Program-made: the position numbers and the translations under genes
The notes under the pieces: model-generated
Database searches by the model: none
What the model was told of the DNA's origin: nothing
Seen by the model: the letters and a program-made list of their open reading frames with translations, nothing else
Part shown: positions 16,768-62,319 of the stretch, one piece after another
How positions within the stretch are numbered: position 1 is the stretch's first letter
How the letters are laid out: each line of letters opens with the position of its first letter
Origin: Cupriavidus malaysiensis
GTDB lineage: Bacteria > Pseudomonadota > Gammaproteobacteria > Burkholderiales > Burkholderiaceae
DNA length: 64,000 nt
Direction of reading: 5' to 3'
Assembly: GCF_001854325.1 (NCBI RefSeq)
Contig: NZ_CP017754.1
Coordinates: 1,860,001 to 1,924,000 of the forward strand

Positions 16768-16812
16768 CATCTAGCAGCATTGCCAGGGCTGTCAACCCGT
16801 GCCCTGGCATGG
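16768..16812 (-). promoter_or_regulatory. element promoter with palindromic operator at about -44
   Basis: TTGACA (16790-16795), 16 bp, TAGATG (16768-16773) on the minus strand drive the 16712 gene. The palindrome CCGTGCCCTGGCATGG (16797-16812, one base off perfect) ends one base before the -35 box. Confidence 0.75.
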
Positions 16813-16814
16813 AC

Positions 16815-16838
16815 AAACGCCCACCGAGGTGGGCGTTG
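16815..16838 (-). terminator. hairpin after the autotransporter gene
   Basis: A 9-bp stem with a 2-base loop (16818-16837) followed on the minus strand by TTTG. It ends the autotransporter transcript. Confidence 0.55.
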
Positions 16839-16859
16839 TGCTCGACGTCGGGCCGTGGG

Positions 16860-19049
16860 TCAGAACCCGATGTTGACCCCACCGCCGACCGCGACGCCGG
16901 CCGCACCGGTGGCGCCCCCGACGTTGAGGTTGACCACGGCGTTCGGGCCGAACCGGTGGAACACCTTCACCGAGTAGCCGAACTGACCACGGAAGTTCGC
17001 CACCCCGATGGCCGCCTGGGTGTCGTGGGCGCTGTCCGGGTTGTACATCGCGGACGCAGCCGCAGCGGACATGGCCCCCACACCGTCGATGCGGTTGCTC
17101 AGGTCGTTCATCCCCCGGTTCACCGCGTCGAACCGCTGGTCCACGCTGTTCGAGAGGGCGCCGACCTGCTGATCGGTGTAGCTCTTCGACTGGGACAGCG
17201 TCTGGGCGGCCTGCTGGTCGGTGTAGGTCTTCGACTGCGACAGGGTCTGGGCGGTCTGCTGGTCCGTGTAGGTGTTCGCGGACTGCAGGACCGTCGTCGC
17301 ATCACCCGAACCGGAACCGGTGGTCGGGATCTTGGCGATCGCCTGATCGGTGTACCCGTTGGCCGACGTCACCGCAGCAGCGGACTGCTGGTCGGTGTAG
17401 GTGTTCGCCGAGGACACGGCTGCAGCGACCTGCTGCTGCACGTAGGCGGCGGACACCCCCGAGGACGTCCCTTCGGCAGCTTCCAGAGCGGTGACCCGGG
17501 TGCCCAGCGAGGACACGGCCTGGTTGGTCGCAAAGAGCTGCGAACCGTTGACCGCGTTCGTGCTGGTGGCGGTGAGCGCACCGGGTGCCACGTTGGTGAA
17601 GATCACCGGCGTGGTGGCCCCGACGCCGCCCAGCGTCACGCTGGTCTTCGCGGAGCTGTCGTACGACACCGCGTTGGAGGTGGCGCTGGTCACGTTGGCG
17701 AGCGCGGCGGTGAGCTGACCCACGTTCACCGCGTCGGTGCTGCCCGTGCCGGCGGCCACACCAGTCAGGGTGCGCGCACCGCTGGTCCCGCTGATGTCCA
17801 CCGTGGTACCGCCGGTCGACGCGCCCACCGTGATCGTCCCGTTGCCCGGGGCACCACCGGTCTGCTGCACGAGGCCCACCGTACCGTTGCTCAGGTTGGT
17901 GTTGATCGAGGTGATCGCCGAAGTGTTCGACGCGATGGCCGAGGTGTTGGTGCTCACCTGGCTGGACAGCGTCGACACGTTCTGGTTGGTCGCGTTGAGC
18001 TGCGAACCGTTCACCGCGTCGGTGCTGGTCGAGGACACGCTACCGGCGGCCACCCCCGTGAGGGTGCGCGCACCGCTGGTACCGGTCAGGTCCACGGTCG
18101 TGCCACCGGTGGAAGCGCCCACCGTGATCGTCCCGTTCGTACCGCCCGGCTGGGCCACCAGGCTGGAGGCGCTGGTCAGGGCTTCGATCGCCTGGGTGGC
18201 GGCGTAGAGCTGCGACCCGTTCACCGCGTCGGTGCTGTTGGCGTTCACCTGGCCGGCGGCCACGTTGGTGATCGTGCGCTCACCGCCCACGGTCCCCACG
18301 CTGATGGTGCCGGTCGGCGTGGCGCCTGCGAAGGTGTACCCGGTTCCCCGGATCGTCATCCCGGAGGTGCCGGTCACGGAGTAGGTCGTCGAGCCGTTGC
18401 CCAGGGCCACGCTGTAATCCTGCGAGGCGTTCGCCTGGTAGCCCAAGGACACGCTGTACGCGCCGGTCGCGCGGGAGTTCGCTCCGGCGGCGATCCCGTA
18501 GAGACCGTACACCATGGCCGACGTACCGACGGAGATACCGCCCACCGCGAAGACACCGGACGACTGACCCACGGCGATGCCGTTGGTGGACCCAGCGGCG
18601 ACGTTGGCGCCGTCGCCGAACGAGATGGAGTAGTCCGCAGCTCCGACAGCGTTGGTCCCGACCGAGACCGAGTTGGAGCCCGAGGCGCTGGCACCGCTTC
18701 CGCCGGCGAACCCGTTCACACCGCTGGCCGCGGCGCCGTCACCGAGCGCGGTGGCACCGGTGGCTGAGGCATTCGACTGGTAGCCGACGGCGGTGCTGTC
18801 CTGGGCGGTGGCTTGCGAGCTGGTGCCCACGGAGGTGCTGAAGATGCCGGTGGCCGTGCTGTTGGCCCCCGCGGCGACGCTGGAGTTCGCGGCGGTCGAG
18901 CTGTTGCCCAACGCCACCGACGACGAGTCGGCGCTGGCTCCCGTGCCTTGCGCTACCTGGGCTTGGGCCGAGATCGACGCGAAAAGCGTCAGCGCGGCCA
19001 GCGCCAGAGACGTGCGGCGCAGGGTGGAAGGGGAAAATGCAAACATCAT
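16860..19049 (-). CDS. trimeric autotransporter adhesin (YadA/Hia type)
   Basis: A 729-residue surface adhesin. After a signal peptide ending AQAQ come head repeats of the YadA type (short units such as SVALGNSSTA, TAVGYQSNASATGATALG; residues ~40-230), connector/neck motifs (TDAVNGSQL three times plus TNAVNGSQL), a coiled-coil stalk with TYTDQQ repeats and a C-terminal YadA anchor domain (residues ~655-729) ending in a terminal Phe. The parts needed for trimeric export through the outer membrane are present. It is carried on the mobile element, so it may act in recipient contact or host attachment; that is inference. Confidence 0.92.
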   Translation of the reverse strand: MMFAFSPSTLRRTSLALAALTLFASISAQAQVAQGTGASADSSSVALGNSSTAANSSVAAGANSTATGIFSTSVGTSSQATAQDSTAVGYQSNASATGATALGDGAAASGVNGFAGGSGASASGSNSVSVGTNAVGAADYSISFGDGANVAAGSTNGIAVGQSSGVFAVGGISVGTSAMVYGLYGIAAGANSRATGAYSVSLGYQANASQDYSVALGNGSTTYSVTGTSGMTIRGTGYTFAGATPTGTISVGTVGGERTITNVAAGQVNANSTDAVNGSQLYAATQAIEALTSASSLVAQPGGTNGTITVGASTGGTTVDLTGTSGARTLTGVAAGSVSSTSTDAVNGSQLNATNQNVSTLSSQVSTNTSAIASNTSAITSINTNLSNGTVGLVQQTGGAPGNGTITVGASTGGTTVDISGTSGARTLTGVAAGTGSTDAVNVGQLTAALANVTSATSNAVSYDSSAKTSVTLGGVGATTPVIFTNVAPGALTATSTNAVNGSQLFATNQAVSSLGTRVTALEAAEGTSSGVSAAYVQQQVAAAVSSANTYTDQQSAAAVTSANGYTDQAIAKIPTTGSGSGDATTVLQSANTYTDQQTAQTLSQSKTYTDQQAAQTLSQSKSYTDQQVGALSNSVDQRFDAVNRGMNDLSNRIDGVGAMSAAAASAMYNPDSAHDTQAAIGVANFRGQFGYSVKVFHRFGPNAVVNLNVGGATGAAGVAVGGGVNIGF

Positions 19050-19120
19050 GTGTAGGTCTCCTCAAGGTTGGTGGTTGGAACGACGGACAGCGGGTGAAAC
19101 GAGATGCAGCGATCGGGTGG

Positions 19121-19861
19121 CTAGAACCAGGACGACGGGATGGCGATGCGGCCTTGGACGCCCACGAAGCCGTAGATGCCGGCACGCTTGACGTTCGGCA
19201 CGGCGATGAGGTTCACGCCCCACTTGTGGTCGTGCTCGTAGGAGAGCAGGAGGCCGGCGGCGGGCATGAAGCCTCGAGGCTTCTGCGTGTTCTCGGTGCG
19301 ATACCGGGTGGATTGGAATCCGCGAACGGGGTCGGTGATCGTGTAAGGCACTTGGACGGTCGTGTCTTCGAGGTAGCCGCTCACCACACCGGCGACCGGG
19401 CCCAGGTTCACGCGATCCTTCGACGTGATGTCGAACTGAAAGGGCGTGTAGCCAGCGAGGAAGAACGTGCTGTTGCGCCAGATCGAGTTGTGGTACTGGC
19501 CGACCATGATCCGGAACACGTCGTTTCCGGCCTCCAGACCCAATCCGAGGTTGTTTTCATTGAAGTGGTAATCCTTCACGGCCTGACGGTCGAAGTGGTA
19601 CGCGTGCAGGTTCGCGTCGACGTACACGTGCCACTCCTTCGAACCGGTTGCGTTGAACGACACGCGCGGGTAGAGGGTCGGCGTCTGGGCCACGGGCTCC
19701 TGCACGTAGCTCACCACCGCGTCCTGCGGCTGACCGGCGCTGTCGGCGACGTTGCGTTCCGCATCGCTCTGGGCGAAGGCGGGCAGGGCTTCCAGCCCGG
19801 TGAGCATGGCCATGGCCAGCGCGTTGAGCTGCTTGAGGCGGTACTTGGTCTTACGCGTCAC
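19121..19861 (-). CDS. predicted outer-membrane beta-barrel protein
   Basis: The 246-residue protein starts at a GTG preceded by GGAGGAGAACT; the longer frame upstream would begin within ten bases of the promoter start point. A signal peptide ends at AFAQ. The rest alternates hydrophobic and polar residues with repeated Gly-aromatic strands (NLGLGLEAG, VGQYHNSIWRNSTFFLAGY, GVVSGYLED) and ends in a terminal Phe, typical of small outer-membrane barrels. It resembles proteins seen in phages and plasmids of unknown function. It probably shares a transcript with the autotransporter 71 bases downstream. Confidence 0.7.
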   Translation of the reverse strand: MTRKTKYRLKQLNALAMAMLTGLEALPAFAQSDAERNVADSAGQPQDAVVSYVQEPVAQTPTLYPRVSFNATGSKEWHVYVDANLHAYHFDRQAVKDYHFNENNLGLGLEAGNDVFRIMVGQYHNSIWRNSTFFLAGYTPFQFDITSKDRVNLGPVAGVVSGYLEDTTVQVPYTITDPVRGFQSTRYRTENTQKPRGFMPAAGLLLSYEHDHKWGVNLIAVPNVKRAGIYGFVGVQGRIAIPSSWF

Positions 19862-19913
19862 AGTTCTCCTCCCTCGACGATCCAGGGGCCTCTCCACGGG
19901 CCCGACCTCCTTG

Positions 19914-19980
19914 TACTTAGCGGGTCATGGCCGCGTGTCAATACCTTCTGGCGAAGAATCCAACACGTGCCGGGGCACGG
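19914..19980 (-). promoter_or_regulatory. element promoter with operator at about -66
   Basis: TTGACA (19936-19941), 16 bp, TAAGTA (19914-19919) on the minus strand precede the barrel and autotransporter genes. The palindrome ACGTGCCGGGGCACGG (19965-19980) lies two helical turns further upstream than at most sites. Confidence 0.72.
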
Positions 19981-20045
19981 GTTAACCGTTCGTCTGAGGA
20001 TGGAAAAAACTTTGTAAATCCGGGGCTTGTATGGCGCTTTTGCTG

Positions 20046-20073
20046 TTGACCGGTCTGGTGATCCTGCTAGGTT
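20046..20073 (+). promoter_or_regulatory. element promoter without adjacent palindrome
   Basis: TTGACC (20046-20051), 16 bp, TAGGTT (20068-20073) precede the 20130 gene. The nearest palindrome is the one at 19965-19980, 65 bases upstream. Confidence 0.7.
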
Positions 20074-20714: not shown

Positions 20715-20723
20715 ACCACCACG

Positions 20724-20804: not shown

Positions 20805-21701
20805 TTGAACCCCTCGCTGAAACCCATTGCCCACCGCCTGGTGGCGCTCACCGCAGCCTGCCTTGCTGCACTCGCGCTTTGCCCCAGTCCGCTCAAGGCC
20901 GTGCCAGGGCACATCCATGAACCGGCGGCCATCGCGATTCCCCAACCCGCATCCTTGGTCGACGTCCCGTCGGCCTTTGACGAACCCGCGCCCGTGTTCG
21001 ACGCTTCGCCGCGGCTGACCCGTTTCACCCGCATGCCCGAGCGCATGGTGGGCGCGTTCTGGCCCACGGTGGCTGGGGTGGCGCAGGTGGTCGTGCCGCG
21101 ACCGGTGTTCCGCGTGACGGAGCAGCAGCTCCTGGCGGTGGCGCCCACGATCAACCCGGACGCGTTGCACCTGGCGATGCGGGCGATGGAATGCGCAGCG
21201 AAGCACTACGGGGACAAGGACCGCCTGGTGGTGATCGACTACTCGTTGCCGAGCACCGCCCGGCGCCTCTGGGTCTTCGACCTGCGCAACGGCAAGCTCC
21301 TGTGGAACGAGTACGTCCTGCACGGGCGCGGATCCGGCGCGGGGCTCTACGCGCGGTCCTTCTCGAACCAGCCCGACAGCGAGCAGTCCAGCCTGGGCCT
21401 GTTCGAGCTGGGCAGTCCGTTCAAGAGCCAGTTCGGCCCGGCGATGAGCATGGTGGGGCTGGAGAAGGGCATCAACGACCACGCGGTGGAGCGGGGCATC
21501 TGGTTGCACGGCACGGACTACGTGAACGACGAGCGGGCGGCCACAGGCCACGTGTCGCAGTCTGAGGGGTGCGCGGCGGTGCAGCGGGGCGTGATCGTCC
21601 CGATGATCGACAGCCTGAAGAAGGGGGCCTACCTGTTCTCGTTTTACCCCGACAAGAAGTGGCAGCAGGCGTCCGGGTTCCTGACGGGGAAGCTCTGCTG
21701 A
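20805..21701 (+). CDS. YkuD_2-family L,D-transpeptidase-like protein
   Basis: The 298-residue exported protein starts at a TTG with GGAGGA just upstream and has a signal segment (residues ~10-33). The C-terminal 170 residues match the YkuD_2 L,D-transpeptidase domain: RRLWVFDLRNGKLL, HGRGSG, FSNQPDSEQSSLG, GLEKGINDHAVERGIWLHG (His235) and SEGC (catalytic Cys256; the family usual is S-W-G-C-P). Such enzymes form or edit 3-3 peptidoglycan crosslinks, which would suit a conjugation element that must open the wall. A palindromic operator copy is embedded in codons 32-37. Confidence 0.82.
   Translation: MNPSLKPIAHRLVALTAACLAALALCPSPLKAVPGHIHEPAAIAIPQPASLVDVPSAFDEPAPVFDASPRLTRFTRMPERMVGAFWPTVAGVAQVVVPRPVFRVTEQQLLAVAPTINPDALHLAMRAMECAAKHYGDKDRLVVIDYSLPSTARRLWVFDLRNGKLLWNEYVLHGRGSGAGLYARSFSNQPDSEQSSLGLFELGSPFKSQFGPAMSMVGLEKGINDHAVERGIWLHGTDYVNDERAATGHVSQSEGCAAVQRGVIVPMIDSLKKGAYLFSFYPDKKWQQASGFLTGKLC
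20899..20914. promoter_or_regulatory. palindrome copy inside a coding sequence
   Basis: CCGTGCCAGGGCACAT lies about 95 bases into the YkuD_2 gene. It matches the element consensus except for the last two bases. Confidence 0.5.
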
Positions 21702-21771: not shown

Positions 21772-22029
21772 ATGACCACCACCCGCAAGACCCCTCGCAG
21801 GAGCGCCACACTCCGCATGCAGCCGGTGCTGCACGACGCCGTGACGGCGGTTGCGCGTCAGCACAACCAGAGCCTGAACGAGCTGCTCGTGAAGGTCCTG
21901 TCGGACCATCCCGAGGTGCGGTGGTGGGTGGCGTTCAACGAGGCCGCGCCCGGCACGCAGCCCCACCAGGCGCAACGGCTGGCCCAGTTGCACGTGGACA
22001 TCGACCGGATCCTGGGGAGCGTGCGATGA
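21772..22029 (+). CDS. ribbon-helix-helix-like small protein
   Basis: An 85-residue basic protein. Residues ~12-45 (ATLRMQPVLHDAVTAVARQH then SLNELLVKVL) fit an Arc/HicB-type ribbon-helix-helix: a short strand, helix, Asn-turn and helix. The C-terminal half is unrecognised. The stop overlaps the next ATG (ATGA). Likely a DNA-binding regulator; an antitoxin role with the following gene is possible but not supported by any recognised toxin. Confidence 0.65.
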   Translation: MTTTRKTPRRSATLRMQPVLHDAVTAVARQHNQSLNELLVKVLSDHPEVRWWVAFNEAAPGTQPHQAQRLAQLHVDIDRILGSVR

Positions 22030-22775: not shown

Positions 22776-22821
22776 GAACTAGCAGCATTTCGAGGCGCGT
22801 AAAGTCCGTGCCCTGGCACGG
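22776..22821 (-). promoter_or_regulatory. element promoter with palindrome at about -45
   Basis: Minus strand TTTACG (22798-22803), 16 bp, TAGTTC (22776-22781). The perfect palindrome CCGTGCCCTGGCACGG is at 22806-22821. Confidence 0.75.
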
Positions 22822-24085: not shown

Positions 24086-24150
24086 ATGTGCCAGGGCACA
24101 TCTTTCTGTACCTCCTACTTTTAACCTAGCAGGACCTATTGGCTCGTCAA
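24086..24150 (-). promoter_or_regulatory. element promoter with palindrome downstream of the start point
   Basis: Minus strand TTGACG (24145-24150), 16 bp, TAGGTT (24123-24128). The perfect inverted repeat ATGTGCCAGGGCACAT (24086-24101) is centred about +23 in the leader, a repressor-like position. A second palindrome lies upstream at 24274-24289. Confidence 0.72.
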
Positions 24151-24273: not shown

Positions 24274-24289
24274 ACGTGCCCTGGCACAG
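24274..24289. promoter_or_regulatory. palindrome copy in intergenic DNA
   Basis: ACGTGCCCTGGCACAG, about 130 bases upstream of the 24150 promoter. The rest of the 24,017-24,381 gap holds that promoter and a terminator; no gene was seen. Confidence 0.6.
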
Positions 24290-25943: not shown

Positions 25944-25988
25944 CACTTAGCAGGATAAAGGGCCGTGTCAAGCCGTGCCCTGGCACGG
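25944..25988 (-). promoter_or_regulatory. element promoter with palindrome at about -44
   Basis: Minus strand TTGACA (25966-25971), 16 bp, TAAGTG (25944-25949). Perfect palindrome CCGTGCCCTGGCACGG at 25973-25988. Confidence 0.8.
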
Positions 25989-32159: not shown

Positions 32160-32204
32160 GAACTAGCAGCTTTAGGTCCCATGTCAAACCGTGCCAGGGC
32201 ACGG
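32160..32204 (-). promoter_or_regulatory. element promoter with palindrome at about -44
   Basis: Minus strand TTGACA (32182-32187), 16 bp, TAGTTC (32160-32165). Perfect palindrome CCGTGCCAGGGCACGG at 32189-32204. Confidence 0.8.
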
Positions 32205-32354: not shown

Positions 32355-35300
32355 TCAGCGGCGGCGCTCGTACTCGTCGTCGACGCTCAGCTTCAGCTCG
32401 CGGCGCTTGTCGTGCTCCTGGGCGTGGCCCGTCTGGGTCTGGCTCACGTCCTGCGCCGGCGTGCTGGGCGCCAGGCCCAGGCGTTCACGCTGCGCGGCTT
32501 CGGCCTTCGGACCGCGGAGGCCCAGCCCCTCCCAGAGGTTCTTCGCCTCGTCGGAGTTCTCGCGGACGCGCTCGTTGTGGGCCTGGACCTGCGGGGCCAG
32601 CGGCTTGTTCGGATCCACCACGATCGGCGCGGCATCCTTCCGCTCCTGCGCGGTCGTACCACCCGTCCAGGACATGAGGCTGTCCAGGGTCTTCGTAGAG
32701 CTGCTGACCTCCTGCTGCGGCACATGAGCGCCCGACTGGCCCGGGGGCAGCAGCTTCGCCTCGCGCTCGACGATCGGGCGCTCGGTCTGCTGGGCCGGAG
32801 CAGTGGGGGTGCCCACCACACGTACCGGTTCACGGTCGCCACCGGTCCAGGACATGAGGCTGTCCAGGACCTTCGAGGTGCCCGTGGCCTCCTGCTGCGG
32901 CACCTGCGCGTCGGACTGGCCCGGCGGCAAGAGCTTGGCCTCGCGCTCGACAATCGGCGTGGCGACCTGCTGCTCGCGCTCCACCGGCGTGGTGGCCTGG
33001 GTCTGCACGGTGGGCTGCTGCACGACCTGCTGCTCCTCGCGCGCCTCGACCTTCGGCGTGGCGACCACCTGGTGCTCAGCGTCGTGCCGGGCGGCCTGCA
33101 CCGGTTCCACCGTGGCGGTGTGGCCCTGCTCACCGCGGCCCTGCTGCTGGTCCTGCGCGACGGTCTGGGCCTGTGCCTGGGCACGGGCGTCGATGCGCGA
33201 CGCGAGGCGATCCCCACGCGGCAGCAGGGCTTCGATCGGCGCGACCTGGTGGCCGTGCTCGCGTACGAACGTCTGGGTCTTCGCCTCGAGGTGCTCGTGC
33301 AGCGCCTCGTTGACGAACGCGCGATCGTCCGGCGAGATCGGGCCGCCCATCGCGTTGTTCAGGCGCGCACCAGCGGTCAGCAGGTTGAGGCTCGGGCTGG
33401 TGGCACCGTCCAGGCCGTTGGCCTCGCGGTTCCACGGCGCCACACCGTCGACGGTTTCGCCGCCCATGCTCATGCTGTACGCCACCCCGTCGGAGGTGAA
33501 ACCCTTGACCTTGATCGAGTTGAACCCTTCGTTCAACACGTCCGGGTTCAGCTTCGCGGCGGGCGCGTTCATCGCCGCCTGGATGCTGGCTTGGCGCTGG
33601 GCCTCGGCGCTCAGTTCCTCCTGGGCGACGACCTTGGTCTGCTCAGCCGCGGAGCTGGCCAGGGTCGTGGTCGACTCGGCCTTGCCGTCGCGTGCCAGCG
33701 GCTGGTAGTGCTCGGGATTCTGGACGCTCGCGTCCAGCCACGAGGCCATGCGCTCCTCGACCGTCAGCGCCACCTCTTCACGGACCTTCCCGTGCAGGGC
33801 CTCGTGGGCCTCGCGCTGCTGCGCTTCGTGGGCCACGAAATCGTGCGGTGCGGCCGACCAGGTGACCTGCGGCACCGCCCGCTGCTCGCCGTTGGCGAGC
33901 TGGACGGTCTTCGGCTCGGTGCGGTACGCCCGCAGTTCCACCGTGTCGCCGATCTGTACACCGCCGACCTCGATGGCCTTCGGCAGGTCCTTGCCCCAAA
34001 CGGTGTGCTTCTCACCGTCGCGGGCTTCCACCACAGCAAACGGGGAGGGCTTGGCGCCTTCCACGTCCTGATACGGACGGACCCCCTGCTCGAGCAGGAC
34101 CCCACGCGCGTAATGCTCGGCCACCGTACGAGCGTGGTCCGGCTGCGGCACGAACGGCAGGATCCCCTGAGTGGTGGCCAGCTCCTTTTCCTTCGCCTGC
34201 TGGACCGCCGCGTCGTACTTCGCGCGCTGCTGGGCATCGTGCTGCTCGAAGTTGTGCGGACGGGCGCTGAAGTGGATCACCGTGGTGGGATACTCCTCGC
34301 CGGTCTTCCGGTCGGGCTGCATGGAGGTGGTGATGTCCCCGCGCAGTTCCACGGTCATGCCGGGGAGCACGTTGCCCTCCTGCAAGGCGCGCGGAATGTC
34401 GAAACCGTAGACGCGGCGAACGGTGCCCTCACGGTCCTCGATGGACGCGTACGGCGTCGGTTCCTGACCGTTGATCTTCATGTCGTGGACCCCGTGATCG
34501 ACCAGCTTCCCACGGGCGATGACCACCTCGTCGGTCTCCTGGTAGTCGGGCTCGGGCACGAACGGCTGGACAGCGGCCTCCTGGGCCTTCTCCTTCGCCT
34601 TGACCTTTTCGACCTCCACGCGGACCGCGTTCTGCGCCTCCTGCAGCTCGTGTACACGTGCGTTCTTCGCCGCAACCTCCTCGGCGTGCTCCTTCGCGAT
34701 CGCGGTGCGGATCGCCTGCGGCGCGGTGAACTCGCTGCGTTCCAGCGGGGTGACCTGCAACGGCTTGAAGCCGATCATGGAACGGCGGCGGCCCACGATC
34801 AGCTCGCCCTGGCCCGTCATCAGCGTGGTGAAGAGGTGGCCCTCGCTCGGCACGGTCCCGAGAACGGACGCGCCGATTTCCTTACGCTGCAGGACGCGAC
34901 CGTCCTCCCGGGTGTCTTCGCGCTTCACCCAGTTGAACTGCTCCTGTACGGTGGCGCCGCTGCTCAGGTCGCGGTCCGGGTCGGTGATCGGGTGACCGTG
35001 CTTCACGTCGTAGGCGAACAGCGCGCCGAAGGCCTCACGGGCCTTTTCGCGGTTCTGCGCCACGGCTTCGGGCGTCCCGCGGAGCAGGGCGGACCGTTCG
35101 GCGTGGAACGACGCATGTTCCGCGGCCTTCACCAGGTCCAGGCGGACCGTGTCCGGCCCGGTGCTGTTCATGCGGCTGACGTACATGGCCTCCTCGTGGG
35201 CCTTGTACGCGTTGTCCAGTGCCACGAACGCGTCGGTGCGGGTGGTCCCTTCCGGCAGGGCCTTCAGGAACGCAGCGGCATCGAACAGCCCCTGGCGCTC

Positions 35301-36992: not shown

Positions 36993-37059
36993 AGGTTAGC
37001 GGCTTTTCCGGGGTGCGCAAGTACCCCGGCGTTACAGGAATGGCCGTGCCGTGGCACGG
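36993..37059 (-). promoter_or_regulatory. element promoter with palindrome at about -66
   Basis: Minus strand TTGCGC (37015-37020), 16 bp, TAACCT (36993-36998). Perfect palindrome CCGTGCCGTGGCACGG at 37044-37059, the same offset as at 19965. Confidence 0.7.
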
Positions 37060-37433: not shown

Positions 37434-37490
37434 CCGTGCCGTGGCACGTCTTCCATACCTTCAACCTAGCGGGCTCTGTGGGCGTGTCAA
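37434..37490 (-). promoter_or_regulatory. element promoter with palindrome just downstream of start point
   Basis: Minus strand TTGACA (37485-37490), 16 bp, TAGGTT (37463-37468). CCGTGCCGTGGCACGT (37434-37449) is centred near +15, a repressor-type position. Confidence 0.75.
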
Positions 37491-41366: not shown

Positions 41367-42341
41367 GGTCGTTCCTTTGTTCGTGCTCGGTTGGTACGCG
41401 GGAGGCGTCCCGTGGGACCACCTGCCGCTCGGAACGAAGTGTCGAGGGGCGACCCCCCGGACCTGAGTCGCCGGCCCGCCGTCCCCTGGGCGGGGGCGCG
41501 ACTCACGGCCGGTGGCGCACCAGGCGCACCAGGGCTGGACTCGCCCCGGTCCCGGCGGGGCCGGGCTCAACGCTGGCCAGTCCAGGGGCACGACGGCACG
41601 GCCTTGGACCGCGCCATGGCACGGAGGCCCGGTGGGGCAAGGGTCGGGCGGGCACCGCCCAGGCGGTCCAGGCTGTCCGGGTGAAATCGGCGATGTTCTC
41701 CCGTACAACCAGAAGGGGCAGCGCCCACCGGTGGGAAAGGTAACGCCGTCCCATAGACGGCAACCTTCCCCGGCTGGGGATCAGGATCCTTGTTGAACCC
41801 ATGGGGAAAGGCTTGGACCGCTTGGACCGATCCTCGGTGCACACCGTGGGACGGTCCCCACGGGCTGTCCAGGCATCACCACGAGGACCTGGCCAGGCCT
41901 GGGCCAGGAACCGGGCGAGCCCGGACAGGACCGGCATCGACGGTTCCCGTAAATCCTCACCGTCGGTTGTACAGCAAGCCGTGCCACGGCACGGGCTCAC
42001 CCCGTCCACCCGCTCGCCGCGCGGCGTTCCGTCTCCCCAGCAGCGGCGCTGCCGACGTCACCGTTTTCCCGTTCCCGTCCTTCCCCGCGACCCTGCCTCG
42101 GGCCCGGAGTCCGTCAAGGCGCACCCGGCCGTGTTGCTGCGCGGCCCGCACCACCTGGCGCTCGAATCCTTGACCGTCCCCAGGACCTCGGCGACCCCCA
42201 TCGCGGGACGAGAACTCAGGAAAACGGCGGCAACGACGCCAGGCACGCAGGCTCGACGGAACAACGTCAACGGCCAGGTCAAAAGCGGGCCTCAAAGCTC
42301 GGAGCCGGTCAGCTCACAGCACCACCACCAGGAGGAATGTC
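41367..42341. other. 975-bp intergenic region, GC-rich, no convincing gene
   Basis: This gap separates the leftward primase gene from a rightward small gene. It is rich in short GGACCG/CCAGGC-type repeats and small inverted repeats and includes one perfect element palindrome (41979-41994) and a degraded one (around 41609-41623). Open frames on both strands look like compositional artefacts. A structured noncoding role (second origin, oriT or RNA) is possible but I see no known consensus. Confidence 0.4.
41979..41994. promoter_or_regulatory. palindrome copy without recognised promoter
   Basis: CCGTGCCACGGCACGG is a perfect copy of the element palindrome. No TTGAC-N16 promoter was seen next to it. 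Confidence 0.65.
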
Positions 42342-42548: not shown

Positions 42549-42994
42549 TCCGTGCCATGGCCACGAGGGAGGCGTCCACCGGGCGGTGGGCGCTCACCCA
42601 TCGACCTGGTACCGGGGCGGGGTGTGGGGAGTTGCATTTTGCGTCATCAAATGATCTGAGGTGTTGTGTTCTACCGTGGGTACCCGTAAACTCCCGCCCA
42701 GAATCAGAGCAAGAGCAGCACGAAGCACCGGGGCAACCCATTCAGCATCACCATCGCGCAACCGCGGCCATCGCAATCGGCACCGCGGCTTGTCGACGAT
42801 CAGGGATCAGCGCCTGGACCTCTACGCACCGGTGGCATCGAGGGTGCCGGTCGGGCGGACGAAGGACGGCCTGTTTCAGCTCGACGCGATCACGTCACGG
42901 TTGGGCTGGTTCGGCCGAAATGGAAACCAGGACGTGCCATAGCACAGCGTAGCGCTGGGCGGATGGCCGACGACAACCAGCACGAGGGACCAAC
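42549..42994. other. 446-bp gap with degraded palindromes
   Basis: Two imperfect palindrome copies are present: around 42550-42565 (one inserted base) and ACGTGCCATAGCACAG at 42932-42947, 48 bases before the zincin lipoprotein gene. A 93-codon frame (42661-42942) has some protein-like character at its end but no ribosome site, so it is not called. Confidence 0.4.
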
Positions 42995-48797: not shown

Positions 48798-48879
48798 AAC
48801 TTAGCGGGTCATGGGGCGAAGTCAACCCCGTGCCCTGGCACGGCTCGCCGCTTGACGGGCCTGCACGACCTGCTAGGTT
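48798..48879. promoter_or_regulatory. divergent promoter pair around one palindrome
   Basis: Leftward: TTGACT (48820-48825), 16 bp, TAAGTT (48798-48803). Rightward: TTGACG (48852-48857), 16 bp, TAGGTT (48874-48879). One perfect palindrome CCGTGCCCTGGCACGG (48828-48843) lies between them, centred near -45 for the left and -51 for the right promoter. Confidence 0.82.
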
Positions 48880-49336: not shown

Positions 49337-49375
49337 GTTATGCTGCTGATCCGCTCGATCGCACCATCGCACCGT

Positions 49376-49864
49376 ATGCCCATCCAACCCGAACGTCATC
49401 CACCCCTGGACCTTCAACCGAACACGGTGCTTTACCGCGGCGTCAACCGGGGCATGCACGACGACGGCCGGGGCTTGCGCCCGCGAAACCCGGACAAGCC
49501 GTTCGAGAAGCACGTGTACTTCGACGGCACGTGGAAGCTGGACGGCTCGATCAACTTCGGCACACCGCACGGGCAGGCGGTGCACGCGCACCAGTGGGAC
49601 AGCGAGGGATTCAACGGCCCCGCGCTCTCGTTCACCACCATCGAGAAGGTCGCGCGGCGCTTCGCCACCACCGACGGGCTGGAGGACGGCGTGGTGTACG
49701 CGGTGACGGTGGCCGAGCTGGAAGCGGCGGGATGCAGCCTCCAAGATCCCAGGGTCTACACCTCGGGACTGCAGAACCCCGACGAGCACGAGGTGATCGT
49801 GGTCCCACCGACCGGCGGTGAGCTGAGCCTCGACCGGGTGCGGGTGACCGAGGTGGTGGCGTAG
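49376..49864 (+). CDS. mono-ADP-ribosyltransferase-like protein
   Basis: The 162-residue protein carries the three landmarks of R-S-E class ADP-ribosyltransferases in correct order and spacing: Arg21 in LYRGV, an STS-like Ser85-Phe-Thr-Thr followed by an Ala/Phe helix (IEKVARRFAT), and an E-x-E pair, Glu137-His-Glu139, in DEHEVIV. These residues bind NAD and catalyse transfer in the family. There is no signal peptide, so it would act in the producing cell, or in a recipient if delivered. Whether it is a toxin, a regulator or a phage-style modifier cannot be read from context. Confidence 0.6.
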   Translation: MPIQPERHPPLDLQPNTVLYRGVNRGMHDDGRGLRPRNPDKPFEKHVYFDGTWKLDGSINFGTPHGQAVHAHQWDSEGFNGPALSFTTIEKVARRFATTDGLEDGVVYAVTVAELEAAGCSLQDPRVYTSGLQNPDEHEVIVVPPTGGELSLDRVRVTEVVA

Positions 49865-50047: not shown

Positions 50048-50063
50048 AGGTGCCATGGCACGG
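50048..50063. promoter_or_regulatory. palindrome copy at the left edge of oriV
   Basis: AGGTGCCATGGCACGG, 31 bases before the first iteron. No promoter was seen beside it. Confidence 0.55.
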
Positions 50064-50951: not shown

Positions 50952-51155
50952 ATGGCGTCCCCCTCGAAATCGTCGAAGAAGCAGATGGAGCAGCTCAACA
51001 TGCGGCTCGAGACGGCCGTGCTCGCGCAGCTCGACCGCATGGCGGCGGAGCGCTCGACGACGCGGAGCGACGTGTTGCGGACGCTGTTGGCTGCATGGAT
51101 GCGCGATCCTTCCAGCGTGGTGGTTGGCTTCCCCGTGATCGGGAGCGCGAAATGA
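50952..51155 (+). CDS. ribbon-helix-helix regulator upstream of rep
   Basis: A 67-residue protein with a CopG/Arc-type core: LNMRLETAVLAQLDRMAAER then TTRSDVLRTLLAAWM. The ribosome site GGAG and the ATG follow the attenuator. Its stop overlaps the start of the initiator gene (ATGA), so the two are coupled. Likely a copy-number or autogenous regulator of rep, as CopG-type proteins are in other plasmids. Confidence 0.75.
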   Translation: MASPSKSSKKQMEQLNMRLETAVLAQLDRMAAERSTTRSDVLRTLLAAWMRDPSSVVVGFPVIGSAK

Positions 51156-52853: not shown

Positions 52854-52904
52854 TTGACAAGCCTGTCGTACCTGCTACCGGTACGTACCCGTGCCCTGGC
52901 ACAG
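52854..52904 (+). promoter_or_regulatory. topB promoter with palindrome at the start point
   Basis: TTGACA (52854-52859), 16 bp, TACCGG (52876-52881). CCGTGCCCTGGCACAG (52889-52904) is centred about +9, a position that would block polymerase. Confidence 0.75.
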
Positions 52905-55183: not shown

Positions 55184-56194
55184 ATGCAGCAGCCCAACGC
55201 CCAGCGCGAAACGATCGTCGCGGATTCGCTCCCTCAACGCCTCGACGCCTACGACATGGCGCGGCTGCTGATCGAATGCGCCGAACGGCCGGCGATCGGC
55301 ATGCTGATGTTCTTCGCCGTGCCCATGGAAGCGCGTCTGGCCATGGTGGGCGCGAAGACCCCCGGGCAGGCCCAGGAGGTGCGGGACGAGTCGTTCAACA
55401 CCGACATCTGGGTGTTGTCGACCGTCATGCGTGTGCTCGGCGAGCGGGAACGGCGTGGCCTGGGCGGCCCTGTCGGGGCGACGTTCACCCCGCTCGAGCT
55501 GAGCGCTCTGGTGGCGCACCTGAACGAGGTCGATGATCCGACGATCACGGCGTTCTTCCGGCGCGAGAACCTGAACGGTGCCCAGATCCTGAAGCGCCAC
55601 GCTGACGCGTTGCGTGAGCTTCCGGAGGTCGAGCAGTTGATGCTCGCATCGCTCACCGCCGTCTGGCAGCGGACCGACAACCTGGACCTCGTGCGCGGGT
55701 TCCTCGACGAGTGCATCCAGGACGGCCCCGTCGCGGCCGCCATCGCAGCTCGACGGGCCGCAGGAGCGGGCGGGCGACGATCCACTGAAGGTGGACCGAT
55801 CGCCCAGCGTGAAGCGCTCACCCCGGTGGGCGCTTTGTCGTGCCGCAAAAAGTTGCCGGTTTTGCGCAAAAAGTTGCGGAACTTGCGCAACATCTTGCGG
55901 GTACGGCGCAACTTCTTGCCGAAGGCCGTGGCCCGGAGGGACCGGGGTTGGGCGGGGCGTGAGCCCCGTCTTTCCACCGTGCCAGGGCACGGCTACGGGC
56001 CTCGCGACAGTCCGCGATCCCCGATGACATGCAGCGCTCCCGGCGCTGCTCGACCCCGAACGTCCAGGGCACCGCGGCATGCACCGCGGGGTGGTGCGTT
56101 CAACCGTGACGCCGTGTTTCCCGCATCCCCGTTTTCGATTCACCGCTGGGTGGCCCGCCCACTTCCTCGACGTGTAGCTCAACCGTGCCCCTGA
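55184..56194 (+). CDS. hypothetical protein; 3' end uncertain
   Basis: The first ~205 residues look like a real soluble helical protein (MQQPNAQRETIVADSLPQR...; AAIAARRAAGAGG) and AGGAGGTACCACC before the ATG is near-ideal. From about residue 208 the frame runs through a perfect hairpin (55813-55834), four 21-bp repeats (encoding a basic heptad KKLRNLR pattern), an element palindrome and part of a conserved noncoding module. This suggests the ancestral stop was lost by a frameshift near 55,790. The functional protein is probably ~205 residues. No family recognised. Confidence 0.55.
   Translation: MQQPNAQRETIVADSLPQRLDAYDMARLLIECAERPAIGMLMFFAVPMEARLAMVGAKTPGQAQEVRDESFNTDIWVLSTVMRVLGERERRGLGGPVGATFTPLELSALVAHLNEVDDPTITAFFRRENLNGAQILKRHADALRELPEVEQLMLASLTAVWQRTDNLDLVRGFLDECIQDGPVAAAIAARRAAGAGGRRSTEGGPIAQREALTPVGALSCRKKLPVLRKKLRNLRNILRVRRNFLPKAVARRDRGWAGREPRLSTVPGHGYGPRDSPRSPMTCSAPGAARPRTSRAPRHAPRGGAFNRDAVFPASPFSIHRWVARPLPRRVAQPCP
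55813..55838 (+). terminator. hairpin inside the 3' part of the 55184 frame
   Basis: A 10-bp stem with one G-T pair (55813-55822 with 55825-55834) then TTGTC. It fits a terminator of the shorter ancestral gene. Confidence 0.6.
55845..55928 (+). repeat. four tandem 21-bp repeats
   Basis: Units start at 55845, 55866, 55887 and 55908. Each opens with GCAA, four bases, TTGC, a small dyad, followed by a variable nine-base part. Period of two helical turns. Confidence 0.85.
55977..55992. promoter_or_regulatory. palindrome upstream of leader module 1
   Basis: Perfect CCGTGCCAGGGCACGG, 20 bases before the first conserved block of the module. Confidence 0.7.
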
Positions 56195-58398: not shown

Positions 58399-58625
58399 CC
58401 TGGGCACGGGGCACGTCCCCGTGCGCGGGCACCGCGGCGGCTGTCCAGCGCCCACCTGCGCGGTGGGCGTGGTCCTGGCGTGCCCTGGCACCCTTCGGGC
58501 AACACCTCGCCGGAGGCGAAACGGCAGGTAACCCCGCCCGGCAGGCCTGCGGCACACGGCCGGGCCCCACGGCATCGAGACCGAGCGTTCCTCCGCTCGG
58601 TGGTCCGTTCGGATACCGCGTCCTT
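58399..58625. other. intergenic DNA with palindrome before leader module 2
   Basis: Contains a hairpin CGCCCACC/GGTGGGCG near 58449-58469 that may end the 57958 transcript, and the palindrome copy GCGTGCCCTGGCACCC at 58478-58493. No gene seen. Confidence 0.6.
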
Positions 58626-59013: not shown

Positions 59014-59619
59014 ATGAACCACGGCATCGAAAACCCGGCGAACAACAACGGCAACACCGCGCAGTTCCTCGCCCCCGAGGCTTCCAAAGAGCAGGGGTAC
59101 AGCAACACCGGCGACTACTTCGCCCAGCCCTACAACACCTGCGTGGCAGGCTTCTACTTCTCGGACTACGAGGAGTACCAGGCAAAGGCTGCAGCGCTGC
59201 GCGACCCGTTCGGTTCCCCGGTGGAGGAGTTCGAGATTCAGGCGATCGACCTGGACCGCGCGCAAAGCGAGCTTTTCGACGCACTCAAAATCGACCAATC
59301 GACGCTCGAACGCTGGTTCGACGACGTGGTCGACCTCGACGAGCACGAGCTGGCGGTGGTGTTCTTTCTGGTGGACAACAGCGGGTACGACCTCGACAGC
59401 GCGATGGACAAGAAGGACGATGTCTCCCTGTATCACGGCAACCTGCTGGACGCGGCCACGGAACTGTTCGACGACTGCTACGGCAGCTCGATCCCGGACA
59501 ACCTTAAGTCTTACATTGATTACGAAGCCTTCGCCCGTGACTGCCGTTGCGGCGGCGACATGGTGGAGTTCGATTTCGGGGGCTCGACCTACACCTGCAC
59601 GTCGGCGAACCACTGCTGA
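59014..59619 (+). CDS. ardA: ArdA-like antirestriction protein
   Basis: The 201-residue acidic protein has the ArdA order: VAGFYFSDYEEYQA, EFEIQAID, the ELAVVFFLVDNSG helix, SAMDKKDDVSLYHGN and the terminal YIDYEAFARDCRCGGDMVEF. ArdA mimics bent B-form DNA and blocks type I restriction enzymes, protecting incoming plasmid DNA. The first ~37 residues (MNHGIENPANNNGNTAQFL...) are an extra segment shared with the 56369 gene. Downstream of leader module 2, as ardA genes of other plasmids are behind single-strand promoters. Confidence 0.85.
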   Translation: MNHGIENPANNNGNTAQFLAPEASKEQGYSNTGDYFAQPYNTCVAGFYFSDYEEYQAKAAALRDPFGSPVEEFEIQAIDLDRAQSELFDALKIDQSTLERWFDDVVDLDEHELAVVFFLVDNSGYDLDSAMDKKDDVSLYHGNLLDAATELFDDCYGSSIPDNLKSYIDYEAFARDCRCGGDMVEFDFGGSTYTCTSANHC

Positions 59620-59668
59620 CCACGTGCCCGGAGCCTCGCCCTCGGGCGATGCGCTTTGGGTCGGCGGG

Positions 59669-59684
59669 CAGTGCCAGGGCACCC
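59669..59684. promoter_or_regulatory. palindrome copy downstream of ardA
   Basis: CAGTGCCAGGGCACCC keeps the inner 12 bases of the consensus. Confidence 0.5.
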
Positions 59685-59742
59685 CTCACCGCCCGGGTAT
59701 CCAGCGGGACCCCACGCCGAAGGCTCAGGGCCCGGAGGGCGG

Positions 59743-59766
59743 GGCGGGCCCGTGGCCCGTTTCTCC
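59743..59766 (+). terminator. possible terminator after ardA
   Basis: CGGGCC/GGCCCG stem (59745-59759) then TTTCTCC. Confidence 0.5.
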
Positions 59767-59873
59767 GGGGTGATGGGATCACCCCATGACCGACGACCGT
59801 CTGACCAGCTTGCCCGCGGGCCTGGACCGCTGGCACACTCCGATAACCGGCACCATAAGAAGGAAAGAAATAC

Positions 59874-61058
59874 ATGACTGACCAAAGCGTTAAGTCTTCG
59901 ACTGGCGAGGGCGCGATCTGGGAGGACACGGTTATCCTAGCTTTCAGAGACCTGCAATGGTCCTACTGGTTGCGTGAGGAGGTCCAACTACGCTCGGCTA
60001 GCAAGCAGGATTTCGGGACGCTTTGGGAGAGTGGGCCGGCGGGTGCCTATAAACTTGACGATCGGGCTGAATCGGCGCTGGGCGATATGCTGGCCTCCAA
60101 CAAGGGGCGGTACTTTTTGATGGAGTTCAAGGCGGAGCGAAGTGGACACTCCGATGAGCGTGGGAAAAGCATGTTCGAGCGCGTGGCGAACTTTCTCACA
60201 GAGCCAGACGACAAGACGGCACGGTTTCGCGAGATAGCAGATAAATGCCATTTCGGAGTCTTCGCGACGGACATTGATCCCACTTCAAAAGCGAAAAAGA
60301 ACGCAAAGAAGATCGAAAAAGTGCCGAACAGTCGAATCCAACTGTGGCTTGGCGCTCATCCGTATCTGGACTGGGTCTATCTGAGCCTCAAAGAAGTGTT
60401 GGATGATCCAAAATCCAAGGAGAAAATCCAGAATCTGGTTGACACGAATAGTCGTGTCAACGGGTTTTTAAGTGATCTGGAATCCAATGTTTCTGACAAA
60501 TGGGAAGTGTTCGGAAGTACGCGGTGGGGGAAGGACACACTGAAACAGGCCTTTCTACGACAGAGGGTGAAGTCGAAGAAAGTTGAACTTGCTAACTTAA
60601 TCTTGGAACGCTTTGATTTGCTCGAGGAAGCGTTGAAGGGACGCGGCAACCTGTTCTATCACATTAAGCAGCGACTCCGTCACACACAGATTCAAGCCAT
60701 CGACACGCTCCCGTTCGAAAAGATGGTGTTTGGCCCCCCGCCAGATCTGACGGAGGGTGACGAAAGGCTTCCAACCGGAGCTACGGCACAGGAGATGCGT
60801 GAATACCTTCGGCTGCTGATCGGTATTTCTGGACCTGGCCAACCGCCGACACCGACCGGTGGGTGGCCTGGAGACGATCTTAGGTTTAACTTAGTAAGTG
60901 TGGATCGATCAAGTGGCCGGATGGAAGTCATTCTGACGGTTCTTACGGGTAAGCAGCTTTACGAGCAACTTCCCGATGAGGTTCAGGGCACGGCACATAA
61001 GGGCACATTGGCTGTGAACGGCAAGGGGGAGGAAAGGGAACATGAGGACGAGGTCTAG
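59874..61058 (+). CDS. low-GC cargo protein, possible nuclease fold
   Basis: The 394-residue protein has visibly lower GC and more A/T-ending codons than its neighbours, a sign of separate acquisition. Residues 79-88 (RYFLMEFKAE) contain Glu84-Phe-Lys86, an E-x-K within a hydrophobic strand, and an Asp at 71, consistent with a PD-(D/E)xK core, though not proven. The C-terminal ~120 residues include a GGWPGDDLRFNLV domain. AAGGAAAG precedes the ATG. A stand-alone defence protein is plausible; no family recognised. Confidence 0.7.
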   Translation: MTDQSVKSSTGEGAIWEDTVILAFRDLQWSYWLREEVQLRSASKQDFGTLWESGPAGAYKLDDRAESALGDMLASNKGRYFLMEFKAERSGHSDERGKSMFERVANFLTEPDDKTARFREIADKCHFGVFATDIDPTSKAKKNAKKIEKVPNSRIQLWLGAHPYLDWVYLSLKEVLDDPKSKEKIQNLVDTNSRVNGFLSDLESNVSDKWEVFGSTRWGKDTLKQAFLRQRVKSKKVELANLILERFDLLEEALKGRGNLFYHIKQRLRHTQIQAIDTLPFEKMVFGPPPDLTEGDERLPTGATAQEMREYLRLLIGISGPGQPPTPTGGWPGDDLRFNLVSVDRSSGRMEVILTVLTGKQLYEQLPDEVQGTAHKGTLAVNGKGEEREHEDEV

Positions 61059-61091
61059 TACGTCGCGTGCGTTACAACGACAGATGACGGC

Positions 61092-61119
61092 TTGACATCA
61101 CGCATTTTCTCACTAAGTT
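61092..61119 (+). promoter_or_regulatory. element-type promoter
   Basis: TTGACA (61092-61097), 16 bp, TAAGTT (61114-61119), 30 bases before the LPD29-like gene. No palindrome. Confidence 0.72.
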
Positions 61120-61149
61120 GGGATCTCGCACTCCCCACGCGAGATCCCC

Positions 61150-61605
61150 ATGAATACCCGCCTGATCAAACTGGACGCCACCCTTCGGCTCGTCCGTCGA
61201 GCGTTGCGCGAATCCTTCCCCCGCCACACCATCGACGCGTCGCCGAGCCCCACCGGGCGGTGCGGGATCCACGTCACCTGGAGCGACGGCCCCACCGTGG
61301 AGCAGGTGCAGAGGGTCCTCGACCCGTTCGGCTTGGGCGGCCACAACGAGGTGCATTGGCACAGCATGAACGGCTCGCCGGTCACGTTCCAGCCGTTCAT
61401 GCGCGTCCAGCGCTCGACCACCGGAGAACCGGTCGACCCGGTGGCGCCGCAACCGTCGGCGACGCTGGCCAACATCACCACGTTCAACGAGTACCGCGCC
61501 TGGTCCGCCCACCTGCGGGAGCTGGACCTCATGCGTCGGAGCAAGCGACTGCTGCGCCGCCTGGAAGGGCAGAGCGCGATGGTCGAGGCGATCACCGCGA
61601 CTTGA
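61150..61605 (+). CDS. LPD29-like domain protein
   Basis: The 151-residue protein resembles the small LPD29-type domain found alone or fused to large plasmid proteins: LRLVRRALRESFPRHTIDA, then IHVTWSDGPTVEQVQRVLDPFG. The family pattern is a helix, FP, then V-x-W-x-DGPT. The C-terminal 60 residues are a helical tail. Function unknown. Its stop codon overlaps the -35 box of the next promoter. Confidence 0.65.
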   Translation: MNTRLIKLDATLRLVRRALRESFPRHTIDASPSPTGRCGIHVTWSDGPTVEQVQRVLDPFGLGGHNEVHWHSMNGSPVTFQPFMRVQRSTTGEPVDPVAPQPSATLANITTFNEYRAWSAHLRELDLMRRSKRLLRRLEGQSAMVEAITAT

Positions 61606-61629
61606 CGGGCCCGCGGAACCCGCTAGTAA
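61602..61629 (+). promoter_or_regulatory. element-type promoter
   Basis: TTGACG (61602-61607), 16 bp, TAGTAA (61624-61629), upstream of the triple-HTH gene. No palindrome. Confidence 0.68.
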
Positions 61630-61686
61630 TGGTTGGAGCACCGCGAGAGCGGTGCCGCCACCACTCGCACAGGAGAACCCGCCACC

Positions 61687-62268
61687 ATGACCATCGCTCA
61701 ACCCGCCCGAACGCAGGCCCCCCGGACCTCCCCGCCGGGCACGATGGTGCGCTCCGAAGCGGCGGCCTACCTGGGCTGCAGCATCTACGCGGTGGACCGC
61801 CTCTGCCGCCGCTACGGGGTTGAGCGCACCCGTGGCCCACGTGGCTACAACTACGTGACCCGGGCCGGCCTGGCCAAGATCCGGGCCCAGCTCGACCACA
61901 TCCGCAGCGGCACGCTGCTGACCGAACGCGAGGCCGCGGCCCGGGCGGGTGTGTCGTACGCGACCCTGCGGACCATCCAGGCGCGCGGCGAACTGACGCT
62001 GGCGTTGCGGGCGCCGCGGGCGCGGTATTTCCACCCCGACGCCATCGACGCGATGGTGGCCCGGATGGATCCGGCTGGCTACGTGTCGACGGCCCAGGCC
62101 TGCGCGAAGCTCGGCTTGACGCGGCAGCGCGTGTCCCAGCTCGTGCTCCGGGGGCGCCTGCACCCGAACATCAACCCTCGGGGGCAACGGCGATTCGCGG
62201 TGGTCGAGCTGGACGCCTACGCGGCGCAGGATCCTGTCCAGGGGCATGGGGCTGCCACGAACGTTTGA
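61687..62268 (+). CDS. protein with three tandem MerR-like HTH domains
   Basis: The 193-residue protein consists almost entirely of three helix-turn-helix units: RSEAAAYLGCSIYAVDRLCR (~22-66), LTEREAAARAGVSYATLRTI (~78-122) and VSTAQACAKLGLTRQRVSQL (~133-180), each followed by a wing-like R-Y/F-aromatic turn. No effector domain is present. Such an array could bind an extended or repeated site, so it is a candidate for the element's palindrome-binding regulator or a DNA-bending protein. Confidence 0.75.
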   Translation: MTIAQPARTQAPRTSPPGTMVRSEAAAYLGCSIYAVDRLCRRYGVERTRGPRGYNYVTRAGLAKIRAQLDHIRSGTLLTEREAAARAGVSYATLRTIQARGELTLALRAPRARYFHPDAIDAMVARMDPAGYVSTAQACAKLGLTRQRVSQLVLRGRLHPNINPRGQRRFAVVELDAYAAQDPVQGHGAATNV

Positions 62269-62274
62269 CCGTGA

Positions 62275-62319
62275 CCGTGCCCTGGCACGGCTTGACCGAC
62301 CGTAGAAACTTGCAAAGTG
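62275..62319 (+). promoter_or_regulatory. element promoter with palindrome at about -44
   Basis: TTGACC (62292-62297), 16 bp, AAAGTG (62314-62319). Perfect palindrome CCGTGCCCTGGCACGG at 62275-62290, seven bases after the triple-HTH stop codon. Confidence 0.7.

Follow-up and report, generated by a model that had tools for sequence, protein, structure and literature searches.

A single family of 16-bp palindromes, dispersed over a 149.7-kb predicted integrative conjugative element (ICE), emerged from our analysis of a 64,000-nucleotide stretch of Cupriavidus malaysiensis DNA (hereafter the window; positions 1860001-1924000 of the 4.38-Mb contig NZ_CP017754.1, genome size 7.95 Mb), which holds one third of that element. 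As a sequence-only reading of the window had proposed, the palindromes form one element-wide cis-regulatory family; it occurs at background level in the host and is conserved in related elements. At a probability of about one half, we favour the explanation that they are operators of one element-encoded dimeric regulator, most likely the ParG-like protein g169, alone or with its paralogue g172.

Abundance and distribution of the palindromes

The core of the palindrome, GTGCCNNGGCAC, has the form GTGCC..GGCAC, with 10 defined positions in total, and occurs in 18 exact copies in the window, compared to 0.29 expected (mean of 100 dinucleotide shuffles; shuffle maximum 2). The earlier reading had listed about 20 palindromes, of which 19 are full sites (17 with the exact core and two, at 16797 and 42932, with one mismatch) and two are degraded copies (one core mismatch at 41609, two at 42550). 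The family is real, but the count reflected the window: we identified 49 exact cores in the whole element, and the copy with its core at 33173 had been missed. The element makes up 1.9% of the genomic DNA and contains 49 of the 81 exact cores in the genome (binomial p ~ 6 × 10−63), so that the core density is 0.327/kb in the element vs. 0.0041/kb elsewhere (32 cores in the other 7.8 Mb), an approximately 80-fold difference rather than an equal density. Because the reversed-pattern control yields 20 copies genome-wide, the 32 cores outside the element are near background, and the 54 kb of flanking DNA fetched with the element contain no exact core. The full 16-mer CCGTGCCNNGGCACGG, exact at 8 places within the window, has 16 copies in the genome, all 16 inside the element; among 59 other genomes of the genus that were searched, it is present in 1-2 copies in 12 and absent from 47.

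The central dinucleotide is strongly non-random in the 49 exact sites (AG/CT 27, AC/GT 13, CA/TG 4, AA/TT 3, CC/GG 1 and AT 1), and CG, GC, TA, GA and TC are absent. As the earlier reading had stated, nearly all sites are intergenic (42 of 49, with genes called by our own script; coding fraction 0.80), and many are located directly after a stop codon. A 35-kb stretch rich in defence and SOS genes (62.3-97.4 kb) contains 2 sites vs. 14.4 expected from the remainder (p = 7 × 10−5, to be read in the light of the post hoc choice of the stretch), as if it were cargo acquired without sites. An Rfam scan gave no matches, no tRNA genes were found within the window, and a literature search with the motif strings matched only unrelated human papers.

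Conservation in related elements

Through searches with the relaxase and g169, we reached three syntenic relatives, namely, Paraburkholderia phenazinium (relative A), Paraburkholderia sp. BL21I4N1 (B) and G966 (F), whose elements contain 45, 53 and 61 exact sites, respectively; the close relaxase relatives carry the names Burkholderia and Paraburkholderia. The limits of the relatives' elements were judged by eye from tblastn matches. No exact core was present in the fetched flanks of the three relatives (43, 82 and 53 kb), and the genome-wide totals of 54 in A and 65 in B leave 9 and 12 cores, respectively, outside the elements. To compare positions, we scored all 49 sites, counting a match when a relative had a site at most 150 bp from the same relative place; sites without a matched neighbour gene (5 in A, 2 in B and 1 in F) were left outside the denominators. 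Matches were found for 18 of 44 sites in A, 36 of 47 in B and 39 of 48 in F, compared to 97 of 435 (22%), 58 of 472 (12%) and 81 of 446 (18%) control intergenic points, respectively (Fisher p = 0.007 for A, p = 1 × 10−20 for B, and p = 1 × 10−18 for F). Hence the conservation in related elements that the earlier reading called for is borne out.

Of the 171 confirmed relaxase loci, 80 were kept, and among these only the two close relatives were motif-rich (L053 and L054, with 11 and 14 copies), the other 78 having 0 or 1, which indicates that the motif belongs to this element family and not to MOBF elements generally. A near-identity plasmid search with window positions 13400-38000 gave no match, a type IV coupling protein-like probe found only remote matches in 299 genomes of the phylum, and a relaxase probe (E = 1 × 10−80) recovered only its own copy in 369 genomes of the class. 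A motif scan of IMG/VR returned 110 stretches, and among the 80 listed there were single matches on many contigs. One record, IMGVR_UViG_2721755486_000001 (194,882 bases; L201, L303), has many sites, four of them clustered with spacings identical to ours, and a protein 100% identical to g172; it appears to hold this conjugative element, listed as a virus.

Promoter blocks and site geometry

The element-specific promoter block TTGAC-N11-ACCYGCTARGT spans 27 bases in 73 of 73 matches in the four elements, with other lengths permitted, and CCYGCTAGGT has 0 matches in the flanks of all four. Exact sites lie near 14 of the 19 stringent blocks in our element. Taking the distance between the centre of a site and the first -35 base, and using a block model trained on these same elements, we counted 58 upstream cases in the four elements: 20 at 9-11 bp, 17 at 28-32 bp and 12 at 41-44 bp (49 of 58 in these clusters, at ~10, 30 and 41 bp), one at 53 bp, one at 73 bp, and seven at 15, 16, 18 and 23 bp. 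In 6 of 43 site-linked blocks of the four elements, the site is downstream of the -35 box. Five sites (37436, 52891, 142188, 147925 and 150955) lie 25-39 bp 5' of a start codon, and for these the distance to the neighbouring gene end is kept within 3 bp in B and F, and for two of the five also in A. At its -10 end, the block contains an imperfect inverted repeat (ACC..GGT; for example, in the block at 48852-48878) that could be a second operator.

The parA operon and the candidate regulators g169 and g172

In each of the four elements, the sole triple cluster of sites (at most 1 mismatch each, within 160 bp) is the parA promoter, with the order site, TTGAC(A/G)TCATAT, TTACAT, site, site, parA start; one of the three sites is mismatched (two in A). 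Each of the four elements also has a site pair at the promoter of g172. In the three relatives (proteins compared by tblastn, E = 1 × 10−5), ParA (g170) is 92-96% conserved and is followed by the adjacent g169 on the same strand; g169 is 83-90% and g172 86-97% identical, and the two align as paralogues. g170 passed the partition-ParA model (215 bits, cut-off 180) and missed that of VirC1 (25.6 bits, cut-off 313).

The joint profile of g169 and g172 reached ParG of TP228 (1p94, E = 4 × 10−4) with its second half and the ribbon-helix-helix (RHH)-like chain 2kel (E = 0.19) with its first half. With the ParG family PF09274 (cut-off 21.4 bits), g172 scored 18.7 bits and the homologues in the remote relative G742 scored 16.1 and 20.2 bits, all below the cut-off, and g169 gave no score. 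In AlphaFold2 models, beta-alpha-alpha occurs twice both in P0014 (95% identical to g169; mean predicted local distance difference test score, pLDDT, 73.8) and in P0018 (a g172 homologue; mean pLDDT 78.3), so that g169 and g172 are predicted, on these homologues, to be tandem RHH proteins. The best Foldseek matches of both models were chains of the F-plasmid relaxosome (probability 1.00, E = 0.0016 and 0.007), which are probably TraY, followed by AvtR, DndE, single-chain Arc and VirC2 (2rh3, for g172). Homologues of both proteins were found mainly in this element family; there were no plasmid matches for g169, and those for g172 were weak (E = 0.03 or worse), 8 of 9 being annotated as ParG. 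Pfam searches for ParB or KorB domains found none in g169 and g172 (E ≤ 10), none in 80 proteins searched singly (E ≤ 0.01), and none in 78 smaller proteins among the 25 of 44 families listed.

The predicted DNA-reading strands of g169 and g172 are identical in the four motif-sharing elements, bar one L/M difference in g172 of B, and differ in G742. The motif of G742 is altered as well: TGTGCNNNNGCACA occurs 3 times in a 20.5-kb fragment vs. 0 in the following 139.5 kb, and one copy lies ~60 bp upstream of the G742 parA. This joint change of strand and motif is consistent with g169 and/or g172 reading the palindrome and is no proof of it.

The earlier reading had instead offered five helix-turn-helix (HTH) or RHH proteins encoded in the window. 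The HTH protein at 63076 was set aside because the motif-bearing relative A gave no tblastn match to it; the 67-aa protein at 50952 has no match in A, B or F; the conservation of those at 61687 (36-61%) and 15282 (68-75%) falls short of that of the motif; and that at 21772 is 32% identical in A and 91-95% in B and F. Judged from these comparisons, the five seem less likely regulators, and g169 and g172, encoded outside the window, appear to be better candidates.

Proposed operator function and competing explanations

We infer the identity of the binding protein, the choice between repression and activation, and the centromere role as follows. One tandem-RHH chain of g169 (or g172) would act as a pseudo-dimer and read one GTGCC half-site, two chains reading the palindrome, and the regulator would control backbone genes for transfer, surface, replication or topology, and partition, with autoregulation at the triple-site parA promoter. 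Repression would be most likely where a site adjoins or lies downstream of the -35 and -10 elements, and at sites one to several turns upstream the regulator, bound on the same face of the DNA, could make contact with RNA polymerase. Together, the sites may act as a dispersed centromere for ParA upon excision of the element. In a more elaborate and rather improbable version, a KorA/KorB-like RHH network would use two operators, one paralogue reading GTGCCNNGGCAC upstream of the -35 box and the other ACCYGCTARGT, which overlaps the -10 box; together they would silence the 150-kb element, and its roughly 50 sites would also make up a distributed centromere on which ParA pulls once the element is excised.

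Several observations weigh against the operator explanation with g169 and g172 as regulators. The profile of g169 alone reached ParG at E = 0.77, the only Pfam match of g169 at E up to 10 was irrelevant, the Foldseek E-values exceed 0.001, and no ParG was found among the best 50 Foldseek matches of either model. The claim that most sites touch a promoter holds for only 18 of 49 sites, as scored by a block model trained on the same four elements, and the remainder lack a recognised block. Conversely, five stringent blocks have no exact site; two of these have none at all, even with one mismatch, and one has a one-mismatch site at 107 bp, whereas the one-mismatch sites of the other two, at 9 and 42 bp, speak for the explanation. 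At a period of 10.5 bp, the 37 stringent cases give a Rayleigh R of 0.75 and all 58, including weaker ones, give 0.63; the elements are related, so that the counts are not independent. For our element alone, R is 0.78 for 17 distances (1 in 20,000 permutations as high, if these are independent) and falls to 0.55 for six deduplicated distances, and therefore the helical phasing is suggestive, not proven. Moreover, phased upstream sites would suit activation and repression equally well, and the Cro/C1-type HTH protein g186 is also conserved (77-92% in the three relatives, 36% in G742), with a pair of sites near its gene in B and F.

The latter protein represents an unlikely alternative, in which the palindromes are operators of another element regulator, either g186, with phage-repressor logic and dispersed operators, or a multi-HTH_17 protein. 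C1-type proteins commonly bind palindromes, which counts for g186 together with its conservation; the strongest cluster of sites, however, is at parA and not at g186, the four elements do not all have a close pair at g186, and the motif is better conserved than the HTH_17 candidates. Slightly more credit, still short of likely, goes to the palindromes being boxes at which an activator turns on a regulon of late or transfer genes, as AcaCD and SetCD do in IncC/SXT elements. The sites lie mostly on one helix face upstream of the -35 boxes, and the -10 boxes TAGGTT and TAAGT poorly match the consensus TATAAT; furthermore, in NAH7 the partition protein ParB acts from scattered parS sites to activate transfer genes (PMC12421886). 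The start-codon-proximal sites with their conserved distances fit repression, however. Also counting against activation are the six blocks whose site follows the -35 box, and -35 boxes close to consensus, a closeness that the search pattern itself imposes.

It is also conceivable, at low odds, that g170 and g169 are a VirC1/VirC2-like or TraY-like pair of relaxosome helpers and that another protein reads the palindromes. The Foldseek matches described above and a weak Pfam match of g170 to VirC1 (E = 3 × 10−6) point in this direction, whereas the score of g170, above the partition-ParA cut-off and far under that of VirC1, and the conserved palindromes at the promoter of g170 itself point to partition. 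Finally, we rejected, as scarcely credible, non-operator roles as terminators, REP (repetitive extragenic palindrome)-like repeats, or restriction or DNA-entry sites. The frequent location directly after a stop codon would suit such roles, but TTTT occurs within 20 bases of 1 of 98 site edges (background 4%), several sites are placed between divergent genes or promoters, the promoter distances recur, and the positions are conserved.

Comparison with known systems

KorB of IncP-1 plasmids has a ParA partner and is a ParB-fold CTP clamp, whereas the candidates here are predicted tandem RHH proteins in which no ParB domain was detected. Many dispersed palindromes at backbone promoters, the mark of a KorB- or ParB-type regulator, are present here at the level of sequence. 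In RK2, KorB and KorA act from dispersed palindromic operators at backbone promoters, a partition-type protein working proximally or distally (PMC11790492), and the 16-bp KorB operators (OB) are located either 4-10 bp upstream of a promoter or farther away, at 45 to >1,000 bp (PMC11790492). The KorB-like logic that the earlier reading suggested is supported by our dispersed sites, whose distances to the -35 box cluster at ~10, 30 and 41 bp, set beside these published distances (PMC11790492); the difference from RK2 is that there are 45-61 sites per element here, at distances that recur near helical turns.

A close likeness to the parA operon is ParFG of TP228, with a ParA-type ATPase, an RHH centromere-binding partner and an upstream centromere (PMC5389482). 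The features of ParG-type systems found here are the RHH fold (predicted, in tandem), adjacency to a ParA-family ATPase, and repeated sites at the parA promoter; in contrast to the 76-aa ParG chain, which is matched by half the profile, each chain here has two RHH units, there are two paralogues, and the sites extend across 150 kb. Likewise an RHH partition protein, Omega (ParB) of pSM19035 regulates plasmid genes from parS overlapping promoters (PMC9499535), but its targets are six arrays, each made of 7-10 consecutive 7-bp repeats (PMC9499535), whereas here there are mostly single palindromes at ~50 places, no contiguous 7-bp repeat arrays, and at most three palindromes within 160 bp. The parS(NAH) sites of NAH7 are dispersed 18-bp palindromes in the backbone, with none in the transposon cargo, that act on transfer genes (PMC12421886); they number six and differ in sequence, activation has been shown experimentally, and an RHH fold is not named in the parts consulted (PMC12421886). 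TprA is an RHH regulator of the transfer of ICE PAPI-1 (PMC8565334), with one binding region at pilL2 and no mention of an element-wide family in the parts consulted (PMC8565334). Given these systems, the regulatory logic itself is already known, and a tandem-RHH version with ~50 palindromes on a chromosomal ICE was not found among the results listed by searches confined to open-licence papers. If the operator explanation is correct, a partition protein of unrelated fold would have converged on the role of KorB, with a very dense dispersed operator set for a mobile element (45-61 sites in ~150 kb, as opposed to the six parS sites of NAH7), and segregation, gene silencing and transfer would be linked in a family of large, mutS-associated conjugative elements of Burkholderiaceae.

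A second element-wide palindrome, CTTTCGCNNGCGAAAG, occurs in 17 exact copies on the contig G301:C6 (reversed control 2 in that genome) and in 4 on a Rugamonas contig (control 0), and in none of four other genomes searched. G301:C6, a plasmid-sized contig of 82,842 bases from the same genus (L268-L272), has 20 copies of TTCGCNNGCGAA and, by eye, parA followed by a 90-aa RHH-like open reading frame (ORF), and is a possible parallel case. Because they share almost no other gene with ours, these elements, of which G301:C6 is a remote MOBF contig, are used as an analogy only.

The element and its features

By its gene content, the element is an ICE for which transfer and excision are predicted: it has an integrase (domain below the cut-off), flanking direct repeats (40 bases, 35 of 40 identical, bounding the 149.7 kb), a TrwC/MOBF relaxase with helicase domains, and a TrwB/TraD-like coupling protein. 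Further genes encode topoisomerase III, a YadA-like adhesin, restriction-modification, SOS-type functions, TsiV, VRR-NUC and ParA, and a P4-like primase domain scored below its cut-off. The coordinates are collected in Table 1.

Table 1. Palindromes and other features in window coordinates (features outside the window: genome coordinate minus 1860000)
Feature	Position	Strand	Remarks
Host mutS	10762-13440	-	NCBIfam TIGR01070; adjoins left element end
Left attachment repeat (core TGCCGCCAATAGCCCGCACC)	13490..13529		50 bp upstream of called mutS start
Integrase	13597..15285	+	presumably tyrosine type; Pfam Arm-DNA-bind_3, E = 2.9 × 10−5, under curated cut-off; 77-82% conserved in three relatives
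Palindrome, one core mismatch	16797..16812		promoter block at 9 bp (-)
Palindrome	19965..19980		divergent promoter blocks at 31 bp (-) and 73 bp (+)
Palindrome	20899..20914		close to L,D-transpeptidase gene start; matched in A, B, F
Palindrome	22806..22821		promoter at 10 bp (-)
Palindrome	24086..24101		3' of a promoter block
Palindrome	24274..24289		exact core
Palindrome	25973..25988		promoter at 9 bp (-)
Palindrome	32189..32204		promoter at 9 bp (-)
Palindrome	33171..33186 (core from 33173)		within 1527-aa ORF; absent from earlier list
Palindrome	37044..37059		exact core; matched in A, B, F
Palindrome	37434..37449 (core from 37436)		3' of promoter block; start codon 36 bp further
Palindrome, one core mismatch	41609..41624		
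Palindrome	41979..41994		exact core
Palindrome, two core mismatches	near 42550		
Palindrome, one core mismatch	42932..42947		
Palindrome	48828..48843		flanked by divergent promoter blocks (16 bp, 10 bp)
Palindrome	50048..50063		exact core
Palindrome	52889..52904 (core 52891)		topoisomerase III start codon 25 bp on; 24-25 bp in B, F; unmatched in A
Palindrome	55977..55992		exact core
Palindrome	58478..58493		exact core
Palindrome	59669..59684		exact core
Palindrome	62275..62290		promoter at 9 bp (+)
Palindrome	142186-142201 (core 142188)		outside window; 39 bp 5' of MOBF relaxase start
g169 (146 aa)	146754-147194	-	outside window
ParA g170	147205-147903	-	outside window
Three palindromes at parA promoter	cores from 147925, 147956 (one mismatch), 148012		outside window
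g172 (143 aa)	148845-149276	-	outside window
Site pair at g172 promoter	cores 149348, 149439 (one mismatch)		outside window
g186, Cro/C1-type HTH	159870-160238	-	outside window
Right attachment repeat	163180-163219		outside window; direct repeat with left copy

In A and B the integrase directly adjoins a homologue of mutS, and in F it is ~6 kb away from one; because the attachment repeat is situated 50 bp 5' of the mutS start as called, insertion may replace the mutS promoter region. GTATGCC/GGCATAC repeats are concentrated at the element ends (13515-13591 and 163045-163247), with 10 of the 17 copies of a 204-kb region, and are probably arm-type sites of the integrase or an excisionase. By eye, an integrase-like reading frame begins ~340 bases to the right of the right attachment repeat (L051:9562 onward), which suggests tandem insertion of a second element near mutS. 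A reverse transcriptase fused to a trypsin-like domain (157756-159684), with no tblastn match in the three relatives, is possibly encoded by a defence gene. Beside backbone genes, 49340-49864 encodes a NarE-like domain protein (Pfam PF21641), presumably with ADP-ribosyltransferase activity.

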